DNA of 34,018 nt. It comes from Myxococcales bacterium (GTDB taxonomy: Bacteria > Lernaellota > Lernaellaia > Lernaellales > Lernaellaceae). Positions within the stretch are counted from its first letter, which is position 1. The number at the start of each line of letters is the position of its first letter. The DNA is taken from the NCBI GenBank assembly GCA_012517325.1, contig JAAYVF010000132.1:73665-107682 (forward strand), in the 5' to 3' direction. This document shows, piece after piece, positions 25,601-33,824 of the stretch. The position numbers and the translations under genes are program-made. A model generated the notes under the pieces. That model was not told the DNA's origin. It ran no database searches and was given only the letters and a program-made list of their open reading frames with translations.

Positions 25601-27709
25601 TCAACAACCGCAACCGGAATCGTCGTCGTCGTTGTCGTCATCGTCACCGGACGGGCCGGGGCTTTGATCGTCGTCGTGGCTGTCGTTGTCGTCGTCGTCA
25701 TCGGCGTCCGGCGCGGCCGTATCGGTCACCGTGATGGTTTGATTGACGGGGATGTCTTCCAGCACTTCGGTGCTGCCGCCGGGGAAAGCCACCGTCAACC
25801 GGTCGACCACGGTCGCCTCGTTCAAGCCGAAGTGCGCAATCAAGTCGTCTTGGGTGGTGGTGCCGCTGCCGGCCTGGATTTCGCGCAAATAGGTTTTGCC
25901 GTTCGCCTCCAGGGTCAGGCGCGCGCCGATGGCCGCCCGGTTCGCCTTCTGCCCCACCGCCTTGACCTTTAGCCAGTTGCCGGCCGGAAAATCGTTGCGC
26001 CAGAGGCCGTAGGAGTACAAATCCAGGTCGCCGTCGCCGTCGTAATCGGCCCAGGCGCTGCCCCAGCCGTTGTCGACCAGAATGCCGCCCTGGTAGTTGT
26101 ACAATTCGAAACGCAACGATCCTTCCTCGACGAGGCGGTTCAAATACAACTGGCTTTTGTAGCCCACGTAAACGTCGGTGATGTACAGGTCGAGGTCGCC
26201 GTCGTTGTCCACGTCGATCAGGTTCGGGTTGGAGTGGGTTTCGATGTAGCGGACGCCGACATCTCCGCGTACGTCGGCGAAGCCGAAGTCGGGCGCGCCG
26301 TTCGACAGCAGCACCTGGGTCTTATCGGAAAAATCGATGAACCGCGGATGCGCCAGGTTGGCGTCGACGACGTCGAAATCGCCGTCGAGGTCCAGGTCGC
26401 CCCAGGCCGAACCGATCGTGTGGCCGTAATAAACCGGATCGCCCGTGGTGTCGCCGGCCAACCCGCGTTCCTCGGCCTCGTTGACGAACTTGCCGCCGTC
26501 GCCCGGATTGACCCACAGGAAATTCGGATCGAGCCGGTAGTTGCTCACGTGGATGTCCGCGTCGCCGTCGTTGTCGAAGTCGATCCATTGCACGCCGCGC
26601 GCGCACTGGAACATGTCGTCCTTGAAACCCAGGTCGGCCGTGCGATCGACGAACGTCAGATCGCCATTGTTGCGGAAAAATTTGTCGAAGGGGCACGCGC
26701 CCAGGCTTTCCCGCTCGTAGGCGCCGGCGTAGACGTCCACGTAGCCGTCGCGGTCGTAGTCGCCCAGCCCGAGGCCCTCGGTCGATTCGTAATTCAGCAG
26801 TTCCTCGCCGCCGAAGGCCGTCAACGTGATGTCGGCAAAGGTGCCGTCGCCGTTGTTGCGCAGGATGTGGTTGTAATAGACCTCGTAGGCGGAAGTGGCC
26901 ACGTAAATGTCCAGGTTGCCGTCGTTGTCGAAATCGGCCCACAGGCCGCCGCTGCCGGGCAGGCCCGCCAACCCGGCGGCCTCGGTTACGTCGGTGAAGG
27001 TACCGTCACCGTTGTTGCGATACAGCAGGCTGCCGGCGAGCAGCAGATCGGGATCGCCGTCGTTGTCGTAGTCGGCCCAGGCCGGCCGGGCGTTGGTGCG
27101 CGGCAACCCCGCGGCGTCGGTGTCATCCTGAAACGGCTTGTCGGCCGGGTCGATCTGGTCGTGATAGTCGACCACGGCGCGAATCATATAGGCGTAGGAG
27201 CCCGCGTCGGTGCCGGCGTAATACCAGGTGTCGTCGGCGACGCTGTAGTACTCGGTGCGGATTTCCGGAGTGATGGTGTCGGTGTCCAACGGCACCAGCG
27301 GTTCGCCGTCCTGCAGATGCACGATGCCGACATGGAAATTCCACCAGGGCTCGATTTCGATCGCCGCGGCGGAAACGTCGAACTCGTACCAGTCGACGCC
27401 CGGTGCGACGGACAGGGCGATCGGCGTGATCAGATCGCCGTCGAGGTCGAGGTTGTTGCCGCCGTACTCGCTCCAAAGATGCACTTCCGTATCGCCGCCG
27501 AGGTCGCCGCCGTCCAGTTGCAATTGCAGGCGCAGCAGCGTGGCGGGGTGGTCGGTCGACAGTCGGAAGGCCTCGATGTCGCCGGTGACAAGGCCCTGCA
27601 ATTGCCCCTCGGCGGTGCCGTCGTCGTACTGAATGGTGACTTCATCCGCCGACGCCGACGCGCCGAGCAGCAGGAAAATGACACCGATTGCCAGGGTGAA
27701 AAGCCGCAT
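25601..27709 (-). CDS. Secreted FG-GAP/VCBS repeat protein with ASPIC-like and Asp-rich C-termini
   Basis: This 702-residue protein has a Sec signal peptide (MRLFTLAIGVIFLLLGASASA). A beta-rich N-terminal domain (about 22-190) is followed by several FG-GAP/VCBS units with Ca-binding cores such as DYDNDGDPDLL, DFDNDGNLDIY, DYDRDGYVDVY and DVDNDGDLDLY. An ASPIC/UnbV-like segment follows (ANRAAIGARLTLEANGKTYLREIQAGSG). The C-terminus is an Asp-rich tail ending SGCGC at the stop. The ATG at 27709 has GGGGAGG upstream; longer frames extend into the dynamin gene. Integrin-like repeats suggest Ca2+-dependent extracellular binding. The terminal acidic-CGC tail mirrors the neighbours' N-terminal linkers and may be a sorting tag. 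Confidence 0.85.
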   Translation of the reverse strand: MRLFTLAIGVIFLLLGASASADEVTIQYDDGTAEGQLQGLVTGDIEAFRLSTDHPATLLRLQLQLDGGDLGGDTEVHLWSEYGGNNLDLDGDLITPIALSVAPGVDWYEFDVSAAAIEIEPWWNFHVGIVHLQDGEPLVPLDTDTITPEIRTEYYSVADDTWYYAGTDAGSYAYMIRAVVDYHDQIDPADKPFQDDTDAAGLPRTNARPAWADYDNDGDPDLLLAGSLLYRNNGDGTFTDVTEAAGLAGLPGSGGLWADFDNDGNLDIYVATSAYEVYYNHILRNNGDGTFADITLTAFGGEELLNYESTEGLGLGDYDRDGYVDVYAGAYERESLGACPFDKFFRNNGDLTFVDRTADLGFKDDMFQCARGVQWIDFDNDGDADIHVSNYRLDPNFLWVNPGDGGKFVNEAEERGLAGDTTGDPVYYGHTIGSAWGDLDLDGDFDVVDANLAHPRFIDFSDKTQVLLSNGAPDFGFADVRGDVGVRYIETHSNPNLIDVDNDGDLDLYITDVYVGYKSQLYLNRLVEEGSLRFELYNYQGGILVDNGWGSAWADYDGDGDLDLYSYGLWRNDFPAGNWLKVKAVGQKANRAAIGARLTLEANGKTYLREIQAGSGTTTQDDLIAHFGLNEATVVDRLTVAFPGGSTEVLEDIPVNQTITVTDTAAPDADDDDDNDSHDDDQSPGPSGDDDDNDDDDSGCGC

Positions 27710-27803: not shown

Positions 27804-29477
27804 CTAGCCGCGGGAAAAATCCGCCCGAGACACATCCGGACCATCGGTAAGCGTCGCCAATTCCCGTAATGCGTCTTGGACATTTTTACCTTGCGCGGGC
27901 AGATCCCCAACCAACCGTTCAATGACGGCCAGTTCATGGCGGATGAATTCCATGGCCTGCTTGGCAAGATCGTCGATGCAACGGTTGGTCGCACCGGCCC
28001 ACTGGGCGCTGAGGCGGGAAAGGTTCTTCTCAACCTCCCACGGTATTTGTTTCTGGAGGTGTCGGTTAACAAGGGGCCGGAAGATGAGCATCGGGATGAT
28101 GAACCAGAGCAGGTCGAGCGGGATATCGAACGTCTTGCCGACGCGCACATCCGGACGCGCCGGTTCTTCGATCTCGCCCTGGAACTGAGCGCCGGTCAAT
28201 GTCGTTTTCAGAGCCTTCTGGATTGCCTGGGCTAATCGATCCTGAAAGGCTCGTACTGAACGGGCGATGGCCGCTTGGGATTGCGTCAGATAGGGCGCAA
28301 GAAAGTCCTCGCCTTGCATGGAGAGGGTTTTCATCTCGATTTCCAACGTCGATTCCAACCATGCCTTGTAAGCGGTGGAGGTTTTAGAGAGGTGACCTTT
28401 CCATTCCGGCGCTTTGATTTTCAACTCGGCAAGGAGCTTCTCGGTCAATTCACCCCGGTAAACTCTGAACCGTTCGAATGAGGCGTTCTGCACCTTTGTT
28501 TTATGGTCATTGGCGACAAGCCAGACCTCATTGCGAATCTGGTCGAAGTCGTCCTTTTCCCGGCTTAGGAGACCGCGCAATTCTCGCAGCGCCTCCTCGT
28601 CGGCTGACGCAGCCTGCAAAGCAACCGTCAGGTATTCCCGGCACGATCCGACAAGCGCACGGACTTTGTGGGACATGATCTCGCTGAACCGAGTTTCGTG
28701 GTTCTCGACCACGCGGCTGATCAGAAACTCGCGGAGTGCGTCACGCTGATTTTCGAATGAGGGGCGGATCGAGAAAGGGAACACGGGAATCGTGCGGCCA
28801 AAATACTTGTCGAGTTGCTCGCGGGTAAAATCGATGATCTTCTCGGTTTGCCCCGACGTTACGATGTCAGCCTTTGACAAGAGGACTAGAATTTCCGGCG
28901 TGTGCCGCGCCAACTCGTCGAGAAGCTGAAGGTCCTGCTCGGAAAGCGGATGGTCGATGCTCACGGCGACGATAGCCGCTCCCACGCGCGGCAACCAGTC
29001 CAACGACGCCTGAGTATTGTGTCGAAACAGGCTGCCCAGGCCGGGTGTATCGACGAAGCGGACACCCTGGAATTTCGCCAGTGTCGGACTTTCAACTTCG
29101 ACCATGGCGACCTGTTTGCGATTGTCGGGATTTTCGCTTTCGGTCACGTACTCCGCAACGGAGCCGGACGAAACGTCCTCACTTTTTCCGGAAAGGTAAC
29201 GCACGACGGCGTGGGCGGTGGGGCCGTAGCCGATGCGCGTCACCACTGCCGTCGTCGGCAGTACATCCACCGGGACGATCTCACGGCCAAAAAGGCTGTT
29301 GAGGAAGGAACTCTTGCCCGATTTGAATTGCCCGAAAATCGCCACGTCCACAATGCCGCCGTCAGATAGCGCGTCGGTCGCGGCTTTGATCTGCGGCGAT
29401 AACGAGACGATCCCAAAAGTCGTGCAAACGGCCTCGATCTTTTTCAGGGAATGCAACAGAGCCTCGGGTGTAGTCAT
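27804..29477 (-). CDS. Bacterial dynamin-like GTPase
   Basis: This 557-residue protein has a dynamin-family G domain: P-loop GQFKSGKSS (49-57), switch I threonines in LPTTAVVT (73-80), DTPGLGS (143-149) and SKAD (201-204). A long helical region (about 250-440) follows, then a hydrophobic paddle or membrane segment DIPLDLLWFIIPMLIFRPLV (about 455-475) and more helix. This is the layout of bacterial dynamin-like proteins that bind or remodel the inner membrane. The ATG overlaps the preceding small gene by 4 bp (ATGA). It is the last gene of the operon led by a fluoride riboswitch. Its codon choice looks less GC-biased than the flagellar region, hinting at transfer. The specific function is unknown. 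Confidence 0.88.
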   Translation of the reverse strand: MTTPEALLHSLKKIEAVCTTFGIVSLSPQIKAATDALSDGGIVDVAIFGQFKSGKSSFLNSLFGREIVPVDVLPTTAVVTRIGYGPTAHAVVRYLSGKSEDVSSGSVAEYVTESENPDNRKQVAMVEVESPTLAKFQGVRFVDTPGLGSLFRHNTQASLDWLPRVGAAIVAVSIDHPLSEQDLQLLDELARHTPEILVLLSKADIVTSGQTEKIIDFTREQLDKYFGRTIPVFPFSIRPSFENQRDALREFLISRVVENHETRFSEIMSHKVRALVGSCREYLTVALQAASADEEALRELRGLLSREKDDFDQIRNEVWLVANDHKTKVQNASFERFRVYRGELTEKLLAELKIKAPEWKGHLSKTSTAYKAWLESTLEIEMKTLSMQGEDFLAPYLTQSQAAIARSVRAFQDRLAQAIQKALKTTLTGAQFQGEIEEPARPDVRVGKTFDIPLDLLWFIIPMLIFRPLVNRHLQKQIPWEVEKNLSRLSAQWAGATNRCIDDLAKQAMEFIRHELAVIERLVGDLPAQGKNVQDALRELATLTDGPDVSRADFSRG

Positions 29478-29917
29478 CTGTTCACTCCTTCGGTCGCATC
29501 ACTTTCTTTATTCACGATATCGCCAATATGCTGAACACCTTGCAACAACTCTCGTACCCGAGGATCAAGGAACGCCAGCAGTTCCGGAGACGGATCGCCG
29601 TAGCCCCGCAGGTACTTGCCGCCCAGTTCGACCAAATAAAGCCACAGGCTCGTGGCATGAGACCGGATCGACTCCGTAGCCCTGACGGCATGGCCTTCCA
29701 ACTGCAGGGCGTTTTGCACTTCGCGTAGGCGAGCCTGCAAATACTCCACTTCCTTCAGAAGGGCGTCTCTCCGTTCGGGGCCAAGGTTATTGACCTCTTC
29801 GTAAAACACGGACTTGTATTCCCGGCCTTCCGCCCAGGAACGGAATTCGCAGAGCGCCTGGTCCAGAAGCTGGAATGTGATGGAGATGTTCCTCCTATGT
29901 CCCTCTGTCATGTCCAT
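29474..29917 (-). CDS. Small helical protein between AAA ATPase and dynamin genes
   Basis: This 147-residue, Leu/Glu/Arg-rich, predicted all-helical soluble protein has a coiled-coil-like centre (RRDALLKEVEYLQARLREVQNAL). It has no signal peptide, membrane segment or known motif. Its ATG directly follows the TGA of the AAA ATPase gene (TGAATG) and its stop overlaps the dynamin start by 4 bp, so the three are almost certainly translated together. It is plausibly an adaptor linking the ATPase and the GTPase, which is inferred from coupling alone. I do not recognise a family. Confidence 0.7.
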   Translation of the reverse strand: MDMTEGHRRNISITFQLLDQALCEFRSWAEGREYKSVFYEEVNNLGPERRDALLKEVEYLQARLREVQNALQLEGHAVRATESIRSHATSLWLYLVELGGKYLRGYGDPSPELLAFLDPRVRELLQGVQHIGDIVNKESDATEGVNR

Positions 29918-30688
29918 TCAGACTGGCCCTCTCTCCACTTTGGCCGGGGGCGCCGAACTTCGCGGATCGAGTTTAGGGAACGAAATCCCAAGGTACTGCC
30001 CGGCAATATCCGACGAGACATCGATACGCAACAACCCCGTCAGCAAACGACCATCGTTCCAGTAGCGAGGTTTCCCGGCTCTTTGCCCCATCATCTTGAT
30101 CCACCCCGGGCGACCATTGGCGTTACGCAGTATTGCGCGCCGTTCCTTATCGTCCGGAGGACGAGGCAAGGGGTGCTCGCCTGCGGCTGTCTCGAAAATC
30201 GTCATCATAGAATCCTTGTCGAGCGGCGGAACCTCAATCCTCTTGTCCGTCATTTTCAGCGAGCGGAATCGCGCCGCGTCACGCGGGAATTCCACATCGA
30301 CGGCCGCCAGGATTCCGATTTTCAAGGTCCAGAGCTGTTTGAGAAAACCCTTGGAGGCCGTGCCGATGTCCTGAAAATGATCCAGCAGCAAGACACCTGC
30401 CCGATTCTCGGCGGCGATTTTCATGCGACCCCGTATTCGTTGTTGCGACCATTCTTCAATGTCGTATTCGGGATAAACCTGAAGCAGCGCCCTCGTGATG
30501 TCATGAAGTGTCGCGGTTGACGAAGCTAAGCCGTAGGGGCAACCAATGGTGCGGAGCCGTTTCGCGACTTCATGGAGAATCGCACTCTTTCCGATGCCGA
30601 TCGGACCATACAGGACTACCCGCTTGCCGCCCGTCAGTGGGGGAAGCAACGACTTCACAAATTTATCTCGTCCTACGACTTCAACCAT
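29918..30688 (-). CDS. AAA-type ATPase coupled to enolase and dynamin genes
   Basis: This 256-residue soluble P-loop ATPase has Walker A GPIGIGKS (28-35), Walker B VLLLDHFQD (99-107) and a downstream NANGRPGWIKMM block, as in small AAA/ORC- or TniB-like ATPases. I chose the ATG at 30688, one base after the enolase stop, with AAAGG in the enolase end as ribosome-binding site; longer frames run into enolase and read as noise. It may act as a switch or recruiter for the dynamin-like protein. It also resembles transposition-helper ATPases, but no transposase is adjacent. The role is inferred only. Confidence 0.78.
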   Translation of the reverse strand: MVEVVGRDKFVKSLLPPLTGGKRVVLYGPIGIGKSAILHEVAKRLRTIGCPYGLASSTATLHDITRALLQVYPEYDIEEWSQQRIRGRMKIAAENRAGVLLLDHFQDIGTASKGFLKQLWTLKIGILAAVDVEFPRDAARFRSLKMTDKRIEVPPLDKDSMMTIFETAAGEHPLPRPPDDKERRAILRNANGRPGWIKMMGQRAGKPRYWNDGRLLTGLLRIDVSSDIAGQYLGISFPKLDPRSSAPPAKVERGPV

Positions 30689-30689
30689 T

Positions 30690-32407
<1,718 letters not shown>

Positions 32408-32415
<8 letters not shown>

Positions 32416-33637
32416 TTTCTCCCCCCTTGGAAGAATGATGGACAATTCCTTGCTTGTTTTTAACGAAACCTTGCATCGACGGGTTGACCTGACTCAACAG
32501 ATGGCGCGGTAAAAACGCAAAATTGGCGACCAAGGTCGGCACAACCGCGCTGGCGATGACGACCGCCACCAGGAGAGAATACTGTGCTTGGGTGATGATT
32601 TCATGCGACAACCCGTACATGGCGGAGATTGTACCAAAAGTAAGTCCGGTGGACATCAACAACGTATAATACCAACGTTCCTTGCGGTTTCTCTTAAACT
32701 GATTGAGTACTGGATAGAGCCCGAAAATTTTCGAAAATACCTTGCCGCCGAACAGCAACAAAAAAACGATCGGCGCGGCAAGTAGGGCAGGCAGCGACAC
32801 CAATGATCCGGCCCGTAAAAAATAAAACGGCGTTAAAAAGCCAACGGTCAGGGTCCGAAATCTTCGGGCAAAGAACTCATCGCGACCGACCGCGTTCGCG
32901 AGGATCATTCCGACAAGATAGGCCGGCAGCACGGCCTCGCTGCCCGACCACAAGGCCAATGCCCCAAGCCCGAACAGAACAAACAAGACCCATTTGGTCC
33001 GAATCGCAGCGGTCCGATGCGCATACAACGCGGTCAGTTTCGCGGTCAGGAACGGCAACAGGCCAAGGACGACGACGCAGGCCATCACAAAAATGACGGT
33101 CCGAAAGGTAAAGGGGGCGAACAACAGCCCGAGCATGATGACCGTCCCCAGATCGTTGATAAAACAGGCGCCCAGGACGCCTTTCCCAAAATCGGTTTTG
33201 TTGAAGCCATATTCCAGCATGACGGCATAGACAACCGCCATGGAGGTTGTTGAGAGAGCCACGCCTGCAAGCAAGCTCGGACGCACATCCCAACCGACCA
33301 GCCAGTAAGCGACGGCGCTGCAGCCGAGAAACGGCGCGAGAAATCCCACCATGCCGACAATCCATACTTCCTTCCATTTCGTGCGCAACGTGGCCGGATC
33401 AAGTTCGGCTCCGGCGAGAAAAGTCAGAAGGATTGCCCCCGAGCTGGCGATAAATTTGAGCCATGGCTGATTCGCGCCCATGGTTTCGTCGCCGAAAGTA
33501 CCGTTGATCAAGAAAGCCGCGAGAACGCCAACGACGATTTCAATGAGGGCGATGGAGATGCGAAGGCGATTGGCGATAATGGTGGCGACAATGGCCAGAC
33601 CCAACCAAAGCGCTGCGACGGCAAACGCTTGTTCCAC
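32408..33637 (-). CDS. CPA2-type cation/proton antiporter
   Basis: This 409-residue inner-membrane protein has about 11-12 hydrophobic segments and the CPA2 (Kef/NapA-like) pattern. Markers are the N-terminal ALIEIVVGVLAAFLI segment, FLAGAELDPATLRTKW, VALSTTSMAVVYAVM and FINDLGTVIMLGLLF, where the N-D pair is a candidate transport site. No C-terminal TrkA domain is present. The start is a GTG at 33637 with GGAGAG upstream; the longer frame covers the riboswitch leader and lacks membrane-protein character at its N-terminus. As the first gene of the fluoride-riboswitch operon it probably helps ion homeostasis under fluoride. Substrate is inferred. Confidence 0.88.
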
Positions 33638-33757
33638 AAAGCTCTCCGGACAGGGCAAAAAAGGGTTATCCGTCGCCGGCCGACGATCAGCCCTGTTTCT
33701 CTTGACGGGAGATAAGGTTACCGCTTTTGCGGTGCGACTCCCGCCACTCGTCGATAC
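33638..33757 (-). promoter_or_regulatory. Expression platform of the fluoride riboswitch
   Basis: This 120-nt leader lies between aptamer and GTG start. GACTC-ctg-CCGCC in the 3' end of the aptamer can pair with downstream GGCGGGAGTC (33736-33745), a mutually exclusive alternative to the aptamer pseudoknot. A CGTCG/CGACG hairpin is followed after about 8 nt by TTTTTT. CAGGGC and GCCCTG form an outer stem ending just before the GGAGAG ribosome-binding site. The mechanism (termination or RBS gating) is inferred. Confidence 0.55.
33686..33698 (-). repeat. 13-nt duplicate of the riboswitch core
   Basis: AAACAGGGCTGAT occurs in the aptamer (33771-33783) and again here, 85 nt downstream in the same orientation. 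In the downstream copy the CAGGGC can pair with GCCCTG beside the RBS. Confidence 0.8.
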
Positions 33758-33814
33758 GGCGGCAGGAGTCATCAGCCCTGTTTGGCGGGCGGTTTGAAGG
33801 GGGACTCCATCCCC
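33758..33814 (-). ncRNA. Fluoride riboswitch (crcB motif)
   Basis: The minus-strand leader reads GGGGATGGAGTCCCCC, then TTCAAACC, then GCCCGCCAAACAGGGC, then TGATGACTCCTGC. It has every hallmark of the crcB aptamer: a GGGG/CCCC stem with AUGGAGUC loop, an AAAC linker, a GCCC/GGGC stem and the conserved GCUGAUG. The 3' GACUCC (33765-33770) is complementary to the loop GGAGUC (33803-33808), forming the pseudoknot. The first downstream genes (CPA2 antiporter, UspA, enolase) are classic members of fluoride regulons. No crcB/fluc or clcF gene lies in the window. Confidence 0.93.
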
Positions 33815-33824
33815 TGCTCAAAGT

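Follow-up and report, generated by a model that had tools for sequence, protein, structure and literature searches.

A fluoride riboswitch heads a probable six-gene fluoride-tolerance operon that ends in a dynamin-like GTPase gene

What does a fluoride riboswitch control in a bacterium in whose genome no known fluoride exporter is seen? The question is raised by one end of a 34,018-nt stretch, hereafter the window, of contig JAAYVF010000132.1 (GCA_012517325.1), assigned to Lernaellota. Regulons of this riboswitch are usually read as made up of exporters and antiporters together with extra copies of enzymes that fluoride inhibits. We suggest that here a real fluoride riboswitch probably turns on a six-gene fluoride-tolerance operon that combines pH and ion handling, a spare enolase and membrane maintenance. 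The features are collected in Table 1.

Table 1. Features of the riboswitch leader and the downstream genes (window coordinates)
Feature	Position	Strand	Evidence
Fluoride riboswitch aptamer (RF01734)	33756..33823	-	cmscan; pairs conserved in 22 relatives
Predicted anti-aptamer hairpin	33736..33770	-	aptamer 3' pseudoknot strand GACUCCUGCC pairs with GGCGGGAGUC; ViennaRNA
Predicted alternative hairpin GGCGGGAG/CUCCCGUC	33704..33745	-	predicted to form when the aptamer retains its strand
Terminator-like hairpin GGGCUGAUCGUCGGCCGGCGACGGAUAACCC, then UUUUUU	33657..33693	-	sequence and folding calculations
CPA2-type cation/proton antiporter, 409 aa, GTG start	32408..33637	-	PF00999, 1.3e-35
Universal stress protein (UspA-like)	31990..32415	-	PF00582, 5.4e-27
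Enolase, second copy of the genome	30690..31970	-	TIGR01060; riboswitch-linked clade
AAA-type ATPase	29918..30688	-	AAA_16/AAA_22/AAA matches
147-aa protein	29474..29917	-	relatives in other riboswitch loci
Dynamin-like GTPase, 557 aa	27804..29477	-	PF00350, 1.1e-20

When the whole window was searched with cmscan, the fluoride riboswitch (crcB motif, RF01734) was the sole Rfam match over the gathering score, with 55.3 bits (E 7.2e-13; gathering cut-off 34 bits) on the minus strand and over the full model (1-64). This bears out the original prediction, which had called the riboswitch from a stem, a loop, pseudoknot partners and a conserved motif: the aptamer contains P2 (GGGG/CCCC), the loop GGAGU together with the ACUCC strand that is its pseudoknot partner, and GGGCUGAUGACUCC. 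The predicted extent, 33758-33814, covered the core and fell slightly short at both ends. Invariant blocks including GCUGAUGACU, common to 22 aptamers preceding antiporter relatives, are kept in the window aptamer. In these 22 sequences, 99.0% of the cells in P2 and the pseudoknot are standard pairs, against 92.3% in shuffles and 56-73% with the partners slid, and double-sided changes number 11 against 2.9 in shuffles. The aptamer is genuine, its match being far beyond chance.

The riboswitch belongs to a known class and is ordinary within it. It shares with the crcB motif the aptamer sequence, P2, the pseudoknot and a place in the 5' UTR of fluoride-response genes, and differs in a long leader carrying an anti-aptamer hairpin plus a separate terminator-like hairpin, and in an operon whose last gene encodes a dynamin-like GTPase. 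It sits in the leader of the antiporter, uspA and eno genes, a context with counterparts at other loci, and an RF01734 search found no other copy in the 5.25-Mb assembly. The sequence AAACAGGGCUGAU occurs twice on the minus strand, at 33782-33770 in the aptamer and at 33697-33685 in the 5' arm of the terminator-like hairpin, and GCCCUGU after the U-tract is able to pair with either copy. This recurrence gave rise to the idea of a tandem aptamer; a permissive Rfam search of the leader returned RF01734 alone, and a second aptamer or another RNA class there was rejected. A 454-aa reading frame with its start inside the aptamer is a mechanical artefact.

Six genes follow on the same strand. The original prediction had named an antiporter-UspA-enolase operon; all three genes do follow the aptamer (PF00999, PF00582 and PF00113/PF03952), while three more tightly packed genes had been missed. 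The likely start of the antiporter is the GTG at 33637, preceded by CCGGAGAGC; the protein scores 123.4 bits with PF00999 (cut-off 26.2) and matches TIGR00932 under that model's cut-off. Its gene overlaps that of UspA by 8 nt, a gap of 19 nt precedes the enolase, and from the enolase through the dynamin-like GTPase neighbouring genes touch or overlap throughout, with ATGA shared by the last two. This spacing suggests co-transcription of all six. About 95 nt past the dynamin stop lies a further gene of the same strand (25601-27709), which we excluded from the operon. It encodes a large, probably secreted protein with a signal peptide, FG-GAP-like repeats and an aspartate-rich tail ending in SGCGC.

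A proven parallel exists in Enterobacter cloacae FRM, whose ppaC-uspA-eno-gpmA-crcB operon is induced by fluoride (PMC5533749); there, too, one fluoride riboswitch heads several genes, uspA and a spare enolase among them. The FRM operon differs in having crcB, a pyrophosphatase and a phosphoglycerate mutase, and its description names no CPA2 antiporter, AAA ATPase or dynamin.

The first gene of the operon belongs to a family that is dedicated to the fluoride riboswitch. A scan of genome contigs gave 46 antiporter relatives with 54-69% identity, distributed over many phyla. Using an aptamer model built in this analysis and counting same-strand matches up to 300 nt upstream, we found a riboswitch at 42 of these 46 loci; one of the remaining four begins inside the gene. 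As an unselected sample we took all 155 genomes of one class (including Syntrophus and Smithella), in which the antiporter profile and RF01734 were searched separately. Of 31 antiporter places, 30 are preceded by an aptamer at a distance of 18-99 nt, and the riboswitch occurs in 28 of the 29 genomes with the antiporter against 42 of the other 126 (Fisher p ~1e-10). At many antiporter loci no close co-directional gene follows, so that the antiporter often stands alone behind its switch. VTNL replaces INDL at the ion site of one relative, from a Thiotrichales MAG (L034:1097-2248), whose genome gave no riboswitch match.

The family also has 38 plasmid records. The aptamer is directly upstream at 8 of 10 plasmid loci examined (Klebsiella twice, Salmonella, Enterobacter, Caulobacter, Methylocystis MJC1, Rubrobacter and Rhizobium); in one of the other two it is at the start of the run, several genes upstream, and in the other none was found within 3.5 kb. 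UspA is usually the next gene, and in enterobacteria MutS-like genes follow, as on the conjugative or mobilizable plasmids of L160, L161, L163 and L168, where they stand behind riboswitch, antiporter and UspA. In Methylocystis MJC1, riboswitch, antiporter, UspA and crcB form one row.

The original prediction had noted that neither Fluc nor CLC-F is present, and this extends to the whole assembly (96.75% complete), where CrcB/Fluc (PF02537) and CLC (PF00654) gave no match; as positive controls, the two profiles matched in 10 and 12 of 14 genomes. Its further suggestion, an exporter elsewhere, finds nothing in the assembled sequence. The one fluoride riboswitch of this genome thus precedes no exporter of a known kind; the rest of the assembly shows none either, although the unassembled few percent might carry such a gene. 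It is conceivable, though we hold it rather unlikely, that the CPA2 antiporter exports fluoride itself; it would then be this genome's sole fluoride exporter and would represent a third exporter family in addition to Fluc and CLC-F. Besides the missing CrcB and CLC, the occurrence of Fluc in just 2 of the 46 genomes of antiporter relatives would agree with such a role (CLC is over the cut-off in 11 of them), as would the frequent solitary position of the antiporter with a riboswitch of its own. The fold model (pLDDT 87.9) is nearest to NapA and KefC, with a TM-score up to 0.74. N161-D162 take the place of the NapA aspartate pair, K303 is invariant, and so is an Arg in TPFYFLRAG where the aligned NapA has none; these residues could suit an anion.

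Other observations weigh against an exporter. The modelled fold is that of an ordinary cation/proton antiporter. In the 155-genome class, Fluc is rare both with the antiporter (1 of 29 genomes) and without it (4 of 126), so its absence is lineage background there. In Methylocystis the antiporter gene and crcB are part of one row, and the family also occurs in enterobacteria, whose chromosomes carry crcB. We have therefore rejected strict mutual exclusion of Fluc and antiporter as proof of export, Fluc being rare either way in the class and one plasmid run having both; the data show that the family is dedicated to fluoride, and they do not show that it takes the place of Fluc. According to a 2024 review, Na+/H+ antiporters rank second in frequency among riboswitch-linked classes and are interpreted as serving pH homeostasis (PMC11139923). 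The window protein agrees with these in being a CPA-type antiporter behind a fluoride riboswitch, and differs in belonging to one well-defined CPA2 subfamily, marked by the N-D core, the invariant Arg and a switch that it often has to itself. The antiporter may plausibly carry the ion-handling load, as originally proposed. A genome that has the riboswitch and no known exporter makes the exporter question directly testable for this family.

The enolase scores 651.7 bits with TIGR01060 (equivalog cut-off 300) and also matches PF00113 and PF03952. The other enolase of the genome, on contig C105, is 62% identical to it, while enolases of riboswitch loci from this genome, Spirochaetota and the class form one group with 66-80% identity to the window enolase. 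Across these three lineages, the riboswitch-linked enolases are one clade (support 100/99) apart from the other enolase, and some other riboswitch-linked ones (L009, L014, L159) fall outside it. The clade would fit a gene passed between lineages along with the switch. By eye, the main active-site motifs are kept, and the window protein could possibly be a fluoride-tolerant enzyme.

The AAA ATPase, the 147-aa protein and the dynamin-like GTPase are the less expected part of the operon. The GTPase scores 74.8 bits with PF00350 (Dynamin_N; cut-off 27), and its family is frequently linked to the fluoride riboswitch in other bacteria. Behind riboswitches without an antiporter, a Dynamin_N GTPase is the first gene at 8 of 10 sampled loci, two of them in Goldbacteria and Bacteroidota genomes (L061 and L069) and the rest in the class. 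Among the 112 fluoride riboswitches of the 155-genome class, the first gene is an orthologue of the window GTPase at 56, the antiporter at 32, an AAA ATPase at 3 and an enolase at 2; the remainder are others or contig ends, including MutS_V (three), crcB (one) and an H+-pyrophosphatase. Two Spirochaetes (L008, L047) have riboswitch, antiporter, enolase and dynamin in one run.

Some further genes were seen at these loci. The class MutS_V proteins (L148, L153, L156) have about 510-560 aa and lie directly behind the riboswitch. A membrane H+-pyrophosphatase (PF03030) stands behind the riboswitch at L134:256-2334, which fits the inhibition of soluble pyrophosphatase by fluoride. In some class genomes, a GGGtGRT-family protein (PF14057; L025:4782-5777, L019:4101-5096) lies between a riboswitch-dynamin and a riboswitch-antiporter unit.

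The motifs GQFK-GKSS (P-loop) and DTPGLGS are invariant in 31 sequences of the GTPase family. The fold of the window GTPase was modelled with moderate confidence (pLDDT 78.5), IniA and BDLP being the closest structures. With IniA, BDLP, the CjDLP pair and LeoA, the protein shares a dynamin GTPase domain in which P-loop and DTPG are intact, a long helical stalk and a hydrophobic segment; it differs in an identity of 12-18% (structural comparison) and in being a distinct subfamily behind fluoride riboswitches. The 2010 description of the motif named mutS, K+ or Cl- transport and formate hydrogen lyase. Our literature search, whose reach did not extend to the gene list of Baker et al. 2012, returned no paper treating fluoride, riboswitch and dynamin together.

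These three genes could instead be a chance neighbour unit, the riboswitch controlling only antiporter, UspA and enolase. Most antiporter loci elsewhere are without them, and six-gene co-transcription rests on spacing, which leaves this reading some room; we nevertheless judge it improbable, since the genes from enolase to dynamin touch or overlap and relatives of all three stand behind fluoride riboswitches elsewhere. Beyond the dynamin counts given above, relatives of the AAA ATPase are the first gene behind three riboswitches, and those of the 147-aa protein, which has no Pfam or NCBIfam match, occur at the riboswitch loci L021, L112, L151 and L158.

In the leader, folding calculations give two mutually exclusive hairpins. 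The anti-aptamer hairpin has 15 bp and -27.2 kcal/mol (ViennaRNA), with a pair probability of 1.00 in the ligand-free calculation and 0.00 when the pseudoknot strands are held unpaired. In the latter, bound-state calculation, GGCGGGAG shifts to CUCCCGUC, and this pairing goes from 0.00 to 0.82-0.99. The terminator-like hairpin, which is absent from the pattern-scan output, forms in the free and the bound state alike, unlike what a plain switch between terminator and aptamer would have. Leaders of the 155-genome class have a simpler layout, in which GGAGGAGUUUUUUU, resembling a Shine-Dalgarno sequence and immediately ahead of the start codon, complements the aptamer ACUCC strand; a GGAG-plus-T element is found in 50 of 88 of them. 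Such complementarity would join ribosome-site masking and termination. A pattern scan found no promoter on the operon strand in the window, which reaches 195 nt upstream of the aptamer; since the contig itself ends there, the promoter region may be incomplete. It is very improbable that the aptamer has decayed to a remnant without function or has ceased to drive the operon, as the terminator-like hairpin common to both calculated states, which might be taken that way, is set against a match of 55.3 bits with its invariant positions kept, the presence of the alternative hairpins, and an antiporter family found behind the aptamer in many phyla.

We return to the riboswitch-driven six-gene operon as the preferred reading. 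Intracellular fluoride, as a Mg2+-fluoride complex, would stabilise the aptamer, and the 3' strand (GACUCC) would stay in the pseudoknot; without fluoride, GGCGGGAGUC would capture this strand in the anti-aptamer hairpin and expression would be low. We infer the ligand response and its ON direction, and the alternative hairpins presumably act on the terminator or the ribosome site. In the ON state, the antiporter would support proton and cation homeostasis against HF entry, and perhaps export fluoride itself; UspA would be made and the extra enolase would replace the inhibited enzyme. The AAA ATPase, the 147-aa protein and the dynamin most likely protect or remodel the membrane, like IniA and DynA. 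These roles under fluoride are proposed from family membership and gene context.

The interest of the locus lies in an antiporter family dedicated to the riboswitch in genomes that lack known exporters and, still more, in the recurrent dynamin under a fluoride riboswitch. Taken together, the GTPase subfamily might be a dedicated, so far unrecognised arm of riboswitch-induced fluoride resistance that serves membranes, acting in the absence of Fluc and CLC beside a fluoride-exporting CPA2 antiporter, a combination that we offer tentatively and think doubtful as a whole. To our knowledge, the triggers of bacterial dynamins are mostly unknown, and the link to the fluoride riboswitch gives them a defined inducer. 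As the most frequent riboswitch gene of the class, the dynamin-like GTPase points to membrane damage as a target of fluoride.
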